A stretch of DNA of 5,147 bases from a bacterium (GTDB taxonomy: Bacteria > UBA9089 > CG2-30-40-21 > SBAY01). The notes beneath the pieces are model-generated. The model did no database searches. It was given only the letters and a program-made list of their open reading frames with translations, and had not been told where the DNA came from. The position numbers and the translations under genes were made by a program. Positions 2,964 through 5,147 of this stretch are shown here, piece by piece (the stretch's first letter is position 1; every line of letters begins with the position of its first letter). Location: contig JBFLYA010000264.1 in assembly GCA_040757115.1 (NCBI GenBank), positions 1 through 5,147 on the forward strand, in the 5' to 3' direction.

Positions 2964-3105
2964 AATACTTCAGATAACCCCAAGGAGTAATCGTTCAGGT
3001 GGTAATTTACCGCAGAGACGCAGAGGAACAGAGAAGACATAGAAATAAATCAGATAACAGAAAAGATTATTGAGGCAATCATAGTAATACATAGGACATC
3101 GTAAC

Positions 3106-3264
3106 TATTCAGCCACAGATGGACACGGATGAAACACTGAAAATTCGTAAATCGTATCCGTTTTCCGTGTCCGTAATTAGGCTGAAGGTTTTTCCTCCTG
3201 TTGTCCTCTGCCTTCTCCCCTCTGTATTTATCCGTGCTAATCCGTGTTAATCAGTGGCTGAATA
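3106..3264. repeat. Inner inverted repeat (TATTCAGCCAC..GAT..ACACGGAT)
   Basis: Bases 3106-3130 and the reverse complement of 3240-3264 agree at 22 of 25 positions: TATTCAGCCAC, GAT and ACACGGAT match exactly, with one single and one double mismatch between them. A third, partial copy in the same inverted sense lies at 3165-3186. There TTCAGCC and GGACACGG pair with 3108-3114 and 3121-3128, giving a tighter alternative hairpin with a 36-base loop. Next to the right arm the word ATCCGTG is tandemly repeated (3230-3236 and 3240-3246). Confidence 0.8.
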
Positions 3265-3281
3265 ATTACTTTAATTTTTTT

Positions 3282-3305
3282 CTCTGCGTCTCTGCGTCTC
3301 TGCGG
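3282..3305. repeat. Three tandem copies of the octamer CTCTGCGT
   Basis: CTCTGCGT occurs at 3282-3289 and 3290-3297 and as CTCTGCGG at 3298-3305. The last two copies form the right arm of the outer inverted repeat; the left arm holds only two units, so one unit has been gained or lost. The tract starts 12 bases past the ilvC stop codon on the transcript side. Confidence 0.8.
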
Positions 3306-3316
3306 TGAACAGTTAC

Positions 3317-4309
3317 CTATTTTTTAATCCAATTCATCATTTTTCGTAGTTGAGCCCCTATTTTTTCAATGAGATGTTCGGAGTCTTTTTTAAGTAAGGC
3401 ATTGAATACAGGGCGATTAGCCTGGTTTTCTAAAACCCATTCTTTAGCAAAATGTCCATCCTGAATATATTTTAAAATCTCTTTCATCTTTTTGCGTGTC
3501 TCATCAGTAACAATCATTCTTCCTCTTGTTACATCACCATATTTAGCCGTATCGCTAATTGCCTGACGCATACCCATAATTCCTCGTTCATAAATCAAGT
3601 CAACAATAAGTTTTAACTCATGACAGCATTCAAAATAGGCTATTTCTGGCTGGTAGCCTGCCTCAACTAAGGTATCAAAGCTTGCCCTGATTAATTCTGA
3701 TGTTCCGCCGCATAAAACTACCTGTTCTCCAAACAGGTCTGTTTCGGTTTCTTCGGCAAATGTTGTTTCAATCACACCCGCACGAGTTCCGCCAATACCT
3801 TTCGCATAAGATAAGGCAAGTGGTTTTGCCTGTCCTGAGGCATCCTGATAAATAGCAATTAGATTAGGCACTCCACCACCTTCCACAAATACCTGTCTTA
3901 CCAGCCGACCAGGACCTTTTGGAGCAATCATCACCACATCAATGTTCTTTGGAGGAACTATCTGTCCAAAGTGGATATTAAATCCATGAGAAAAACCCAA
4001 TACCTTCCCTGTCTTAAGGTTATCTGCAATCTCAGATTTATATACCTGAGCCTGAAACTGGTCAGGAACTAATAATTGGATATAATCGGCTACATCAGAA
4101 GCATCTTTAGCCAATACGGGTTTAAATCCATCTTCAATTGCCTTTTCGTAATTAGGACTGCCCTTTACCTCAGCGACAATTACTTCTAAGCCGCTATCTC
4201 GTAGATTTTGGGCATGGGCATGTCCTTGTGCTCCATAGCCAATGATAGCAATTTTCTTCCCTTTTAGAACTTGTAAATCTGCATCCCTGTCATAATAAAT
4301 TGTTGCCAT
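3317..4309 (-). CDS. ilvC: Ketol-acid reductoisomerase (class I)
   Basis: This enzyme converts 2-acetolactate or 2-aceto-2-hydroxybutyrate to the dihydroxy acid precursors of valine, leucine and isoleucine, with Mg2+ and a nicotinamide cofactor, in the cytoplasm. At 330 residues it is full length for the short class I form. The Rossmann domain begins [17 protein letters not shown] (20-36). Catalytic His108 lies in FSHGFNIHF, Lys131 in APKGPG, metal ligands Asp191 and Glu195 in ETDLFGEQ, Glu227 and Glu231 in YFECCHELK, and substrate-binding Ser252 in ISDTAKYG. The cofactor loop (residues 46-54, AEVKGSPNY) departs from the usual GLRxGSxSW: the phosphate-binding Arg is Val48, the second Ser is Asn53, and Glu47 ends beta-2. 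That favours NADH over NADPH (inference). A strong GGAGG (4316-4320) lies 6 bases before the ATG, and the start [12 protein letters not shown] is the family standard. No other ilv/leu gene is in the window and no leader, T-box or attenuator is visible in the 47 bp upstream. Confidence 0.97.
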
Positions 4310-4331
4310 TTTTTTCCTCCTTTTTATTCTG

Positions 4332-4356: not shown

Positions 4357-5147
4357 TTATTTGATAATCCCTAATTTACCTGTTTTTGTCATCTTGCCAT
4401 CCGATAAAATATAAATGTAAATCCCGGATGAGACCCTTTCGTTATCTTTGTTGATACAACCCCAGTCCCAGCCATCAATAATCTCCTCTTTCTCAAATAC
4501 CTCTTCTCCAGCAATATTATAAATTTTTATCCTGAACTTCCCAGCAGGCAATCTAAAGATTATTTTATCACCTCTTGTTGGATTAGGATAACAAAATGCC
4601 TCCTGTAGAGAAGAAGGTGCTTTAATCTCTGGAAGTGGGGTCTCTGCCACTATCAGGCTAAACTCCCTTTTATCCTGGGCGGATTTATATTGATAAAAAT
4701 TCACCTTTCGCAGGTCAATTATTTTCGAGGTGAGTTTATCTTTTAAATAGAGATAATATCCCTCTGGCACCTCATCAATCTGCCAATTTATCTCCATATC
4801 CCCTGATTTACTACTTTCTACTGTAAATTCCCATATCTGTTCTTTTTCTATCTTACTTCTATAATCGAAAGCGTATTTGCCAGTAAAGTAAAGATTTATA
4901 AAGGGATATGTCGCAAATTGCCCGCCACTAACAGATAACATTGGTATTTCTCTTAGATGGACAGCATTTTTACTTACACCGATGAAATTAAACTCATCTG
5001 TCAGGCTACCAGCTTTAACGGATAGCTGAATTGCCCAGCCATCTTTATGCTTAAGTGGGTTAAATTCATCCACTTCACTCTCACTACGAACTTCATTATT
5101 CACCACCCACTCCTCTATCGGGCAGAAACTCTTCCCCTCTTGAGAGG
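4357..5147 (-). CDS. C-terminal part of a secreted protein with FlgD-like/sorting-type Ig domain (5' end outside window)
   Basis: The frame from the TAA at 4357-4359 stays open to the window edge, so this is the C-terminal 260 or so residues of a longer protein. The GTG at 5106 could be read as a start, but no signal peptide follows it and in-frame codons continue upstream (..FCPIEEW), so it is probably internal. Counting from that GTG, residues 21-155 are a beta-rich segment ([42 protein letters not shown]) resembling the region before the anchor domain in large exported proteins of uncultivated bacteria. Residues 170-249 are an Ig-like domain of the FlgD/type-A sorting kind: [28 protein letters not shown], a Trp-containing DGWDWGC, then [24 protein letters not shown] at the very end. 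Such domains anchor or sort proteins at the cell surface in some phyla; whether a type IX system exists here cannot be told. The specific function is unknown. Confidence 0.8.

Follow-up and report, generated by a model that had tools for sequence, protein, structure and literature searches.

Results

The KARI gene and its surroundings

The window, which is the whole stretch of 5,147 nucleotides analyzed here, carries on its minus strand an open reading frame that begins with ATG and encodes a full-length class I ketol-acid reductoisomerase (KARI, IlvC) of 330 amino acids (Table 1). The encoded protein matches the Pfam domains KARI_N (247 bits) and KARI_C (218 bits), both well over the curated cut-offs, and scores 544 and 459 bits against the NCBIfam KARI equivalogs. 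A Rossmann KARI_N domain is followed by a single knotted KARI_C domain within approximately 330 residues, which is the architecture of class I IlvC. The metal-binding and catalytic residues of this class (D191, E195, E227, E231, K131, H108, and S252; metal residues numbered per PMC8615647) are all present, as is E187, and these eight residues are invariant in 145 aligned rows. Similarly, G24, G26, Q28, and G29 of the glycine motif are invariant in 60 homologues. The gene is the sole KARI copy in the genome (4.3 Mb, 462 contigs, 99.9% complete). A degenerate or moonlighting KARI paralogue is ruled out by the single copy and the complete set of catalytic residues, and the best explanation is a functional class I KARI that serves branched-chain amino-acid synthesis and is predicted to convert acetolactate to dihydroxyisovalerate.

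Table 1. Coordinates of the features in the window.
Feature	Position	Strand	Evidence
ilvC, class I KARI, 330 aa	3317..4309	-	ORF, Pfam, NCBIfam, genome search
Shine-Dalgarno-like AGGAGG, which precedes the KARI ATG by 6 nt	4316..4321	-	read from sequence
Dinucleotide-binding glycine motif GYGAQG (residues 24-29), following beta-1	4223..4240	-	sequence
beta2-alphaB cofactor-specificity loop, residues 47-53, EVKGSPN	4151..4171	-	alignment and structure model
Glu47, acid that immediately follows beta-2; putative ligand of the NADH adenosine ribose 2'-/3'-OH	4169..4171	-	register of the Ua-KARI (4XDY) and Tp-KARI acid; DSSP of the model
Val48, where the NADPH 2'-phosphate-binding Arg usually sits	4166..4168	-	alignment
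Lys49, sole basic loop residue, not conserved	4163..4165	-	alignment
Ser51, equivalent of Se-KARI Ser61, kept	4157..4159	-	alignment
Asn53, replaces the last loop Ser (Se-KARI Ser63)	4151..4153	-	alignment
MITE-like elements, one nested in the other, behind ilvC	3000..3320
Inner MITE-like element, ~170 bp, 30-nt terminal inverted repeats	3101..3270
Outer MITE-like element, 45-nt arms enclosing the inner element	3006..3050 and 3265..3309
Protein truncated at the window edge, with a type IX secretion sorting domain (Por_Secre_tail/CHU_C) at its C-terminus	4357..5145	-
HNH endonuclease-family protein, 189 aa	1594..2163	+

The gene order ilvB-ilvN-ilvC was found in one relative (L085). In the window, ilvC stands apart and is flanked by the gene of the protein with the type IX secretion tail and by a FAH-family gene; an acetolactate synthase was found in the genome. 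Parts of either MITE-like element recur at 40 or more other genomic sites, with an identity of 77-98% in most cases; several sites carry parts of the outer element without the inner one. The 189-residue protein is weakly similar to the HNH part of the IscB/Cas9d models, far under their cut-offs.

The cofactor loop

A preliminary description of this DNA had placed an altered cofactor loop at positions 4145-4175, in which Glu47 and Val48 stand where Leu and Arg are usual, Asn53 replaces the second Ser of the common motif, and Ser51 is retained, and had concluded that the phosphate-binding arginine is absent and an acid is present. That span includes the actual loop, and the sequence of residues 43-57 is as given there. 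When the protein was aligned with KARIs of solved structure and with 145 relatives, an alignment that is gap-free at the start of the loop, the same four assignments were obtained and the conclusion was borne out. Over the seven loop residues NADPH enzymes have L-R-x-G-S-x-S, and EVKGSPN contains no arginine at any position. The loop has therefore lost its arginine at Val48 and has gained an acid directly after beta-2 at Glu47, as in the KARIs of Thermacetogenium phaeum (Tp-KARI) and of an uncultured archaeon (Ua-KARI). Asn53 was rejected as a cofactor signal, given that Asn also occurs in 26 of the 30 QR-type loops, in which Arg is retained.

The structure of the protein was modelled from a 60-sequence alignment, and secondary structure was assigned by DSSP. 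The model has a mean pLDDT of 95 (approximately 98 at the loop) and superimposes on PDB 4XDY, the Ua-KARI structure, with a Z score of 40.8 and 1.7 A over 326 residues. Beta-2 comprises residues 42-46 and alphaB residues 52-59, and Glu47 lies directly after beta-2. In the alignment with the 4XDY chain, the Ua-KARI glutamate is in register with Glu47 (VVIG-E vs VIVA-E). An acid at the C-terminus of beta-2 is a general NAD signature of Rossmann enzymes and is usual in those that prefer NAD (PMC5817062). Furthermore, in holo KARI structures the cofactor 2' group is contacted solely by the beta2-alphaB loop (PMC5940873, Discussion).

Two relatives of the same family, which are 86-88% identical to the window KARI, both retain E-L-K-G-T-P-N. 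Because both keep this loop, and because Glu or Asp followed by an aliphatic residue recurs across phyla, we do not consider the Glu47-Val48 pair to be a chance substitution.

Distribution of loop types

Our KARI sample combined named genomes, genomes from the phylum of the window, and a single genome for each family outside it; 145 rows were analyzed once five remote homologues and the window KARI itself had been set aside. These comprise 57 loops with an acid and a mostly aliphatic second residue, 30 with Gln/Asn/Thr-Arg, 38 with Leu-Arg, 13 with Leu-Tyr, and 7 of other types. Glu or Asp thus occupies loop position 1 in 57 of the 145 related KARIs, in a sample whose named-genome set is biased towards the query, and 55 of these 57 loops are without Arg. 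Arg48 is found in 2 of the 57 acid-first loops vs 68 of the 88 others, although the rows are related and a p value would not represent an independent test. Residue 49 of the 57 acid-type loops is Lys in 14, Glu in 25, and Pro in 14.

In the sample that represents each bacterial family by a single genome, acid-first loops account for 15 of the 49 class I KARIs. Among the hosts of acid-first KARIs are Omnitrophota, Sumerlaeota, Dehalococcoidia, Pirellulales, WOR-1, and Dadabacteria. PMC5940873 described the type as confined to extremophiles, with reference to the KARIs that were known in 2018; our sample suggests that it is not so restricted.

Only two loops, those of L030 (AEREDSANY) and L063 (AEREGSPNW), contain both an acid and Arg, and these are possible intermediates or bispecific enzymes. 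Another type, Leu-Tyr-x-G-S-K-S, substitutes Tyr for the phosphate-binding Arg and has no acid; its carriers are L028, L037, L040, L053, L064, L069, L078, L115, L121, L123, L140, L141, and L147.

Switching between loop types

A maximum-likelihood tree was built with the loop columns excluded, by a quick search with SH-aLRT support only. On this tree the acid state changes approximately 20 times, and at least nine of the changes are forced by strongly supported branches. Nine phylogenetically independent pairs show a contrast in the acid; among them, Arg changes in the opposite direction in a mean of 7.3 and in the same direction in 0.0 (sign test, median p 0.016), and an aliphatic residue 48 accompanies the acid in 7.8 (median p 0.008). 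Residues 78 (Gln/Met) and 107 differ between the acid and Arg types, and neither tracked the switch on the independent pairs; residue 67 (Ala/Val) followed it in 5.3 of the nine pairs, a trend that is not significant (median p 0.06).

The window's genome probably falls in the candidate phylum Desantisbacteria, judging by its nearest named relative and by one protein, the one shared with G007/L002. The clearest contrast lies within the Desantisbacteria, whose other KARIs belong to the candidate phylum and order of the window and are 73-76% identical to the window KARI. Three of them (L084-L086) have the acid-type loop AELEGTPNY or AELEGTPNYA, whereas L088 and L002 have the Arg-type AQREGSRNY. 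L088, which belongs to the genus of L084-L086, has the opposite loop type at 88.8% identity, with the changes E47Q, L48R, T51S, and P52R; across the tree columns its KARI is identical to that of Candidatus Desantisbacteria L002.

Discussion

Cofactor preference

Measured KARI loops and kinetics were taken from Table 3 of PMC5940873. Among the KARIs tabulated there, only Tp-KARI and Ua-KARI have an acid at loop position 1, and their kcat/KM ratios of NADH to NADPH, 74 for Tp-KARI (DIPSSEN) and 152 for Ua-KARI (ETEILGGNKNPS), are the highest among the natural KARIs for which a ratio is given; the Do-KARI entry (QLEGDAY) is without an NADPH value. For natural Leu-Arg loops the ratio is 0.003-0.084, with the exception of the bispecific Sw-KARI (LRKPFDEASEKE). 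When the acid lies further into the loop, from position 2 onwards, all three behaviors occur: preference for NADPH, bispecificity, and preference for NADH.

Because both measured acid-first KARIs prefer NADH, 74- and 152-fold, a preference for NADH is the best reading of the window loop, and we consider it probable that this enzyme favors NADH over NADPH. That it uses NADH in some way is very likely. The preliminary description had proposed that the enzyme prefers NADH or accepts both cofactors, and this prediction is supported by the kinetics of Tp-KARI and Ua-KARI, by the placement of Glu47 in the model, and by the almost complete mutual exclusion of acid and Arg in the 145 relatives. With regard to mechanism, Glu47 would most likely act as a hydrogen-bond acceptor for the 2'-OH and 3'-OH groups of the adenosine ribose, contacts that we infer from its position, and would repel the 2'-phosphate of NADPH, while the replacement of Arg by Val48 would remove the main phosphate ligand.

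The main rival to NADH preference is dual cofactor use, in which the loss of Arg weakens NADPH binding and the 2'-phosphate is still held by Lys49, Ser51, Asn53, and backbone amides, such that the two cofactors perform within approximately five-fold of each other. The acid-first comparison draws on only two measured KARIs; loop position 1 by itself may not set the NADH/NADPH ratio, and Lys49 and Ser51, both present in the window loop, could still contact the 2'-phosphate. Moreover, bispecificity is known from several KARIs whose loop acids lie at other positions (Ia, LERQGDS; Ms, LEREGKS; Hs, LDDKSPH). However, these bispecific loops begin with Leu and in most cases retain an Arg. Both acid-first loops with measured kinetics strongly favor NADH, and Lys49 is not conserved among acid-first loops. 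We therefore regard a bispecific enzyme as unlikely. It is far less likely still that NADPH is preferred and that the loop changes represent neutral drift or are compensated elsewhere in the protein. NADPH use is the usual state of the family, and preference is not provable from sequence, but an acid and Arg hardly ever occur in the same loop and switch jointly on independent branches, the loop has no other Arg, and only this loop contacts the 2' group in holo structures (PMC5940873).

Metabolic context and significance

The preliminary description had also linked NADH use to an anaerobic, NADPH-poor metabolism. The pathway context was drawn from single family searches, which detected no heme-copper oxidase, bd oxidase, PntB, or G6PDH in the genome, and the positive controls matched in reference genomes. 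The lack of terminal oxidases, PntB, and G6PDH in these searches gives that suggestion partial support. However, an NfnA-like gene adjoins an NfnB-like gene, and the cell need not be NADPH-poor because this NfnAB-like pair is a possible source of NADPH. Three genomes of the window's phylum (G001, G013, and G016; estimated 95-100% complete, one of them of the window's genus) gave no KARI match, G016 having a weak non-KARI match only; either these lineages have lost the synthesis of branched-chain amino acids or the assemblies may have a gap at the gene.

NADH-dependent KARIs are sought for the anaerobic production of isobutanol and branched-chain amino acids, and few natural ones have been measured. 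NADH-preferring KARIs are already known, and the window KARI adds one predicted case; the gene is part of a large and mostly uncultured reservoir of predicted NADH-type KARIs. The frequency of the acid type and its repeated switching are more interesting points than the window KARI itself. We lean towards the view that class I KARIs of the NADH type, in which an acid immediately follows beta-2, are common (approximately three in ten in the one-per-family sample) and that acid and Arg types have switched repeatedly, even within one genus. A preference for NADH in all acid-first KARIs is a prediction from their loops. The opposite-loop pair of 89% identity in one genus represents a natural experiment on the switching of cofactor preference.

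Comparison with known KARIs

The NADH-preferring Tp-KARI resembles the window KARI in its seven-residue loop with an acid at position 1, an aliphatic residue at 2, Ser at 5, Asn at 7, and no Arg. However, its acid is Asp rather than Glu, positions 3, 4, and 6 differ, and the comparison is by loop letters alone. A degenerate DNA pattern for DIPSSEN, used to seek Tp-KARI in 386 genomes, gave nine matches, of which none lies in a KARI. Ua-KARI, also NADH-preferring, shares the Glu directly after beta-2, the lack of a loop Arg, and the fold, with 48% identity, but it is archaeal, and its loop (ETEILGGNKNPS) has 12 residues with an insertion and Ser at the end. The KARI of Desulfococcus oleovorans (Do-KARI), which uses NADH only, likewise has a seven-residue loop without Arg and an aliphatic residue at position 2; its acids, however, are at positions 3 and 5 and not at 1. 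The 2024 NADH complex 8K32, which is 61-62% identical, was rejected as a model for the loop, since it keeps LR and its loop is longer. Se-KARI (PDB 4KQW, LREGSSS) and spinach KARI (LRKGSNS) share the family and the loop length with the window KARI, and Se-KARI also shares the class I fold; in contrast, both have Leu-Arg at positions 1 and 2 and Ser at position 7, and they prefer NADPH approximately 80-90-fold.
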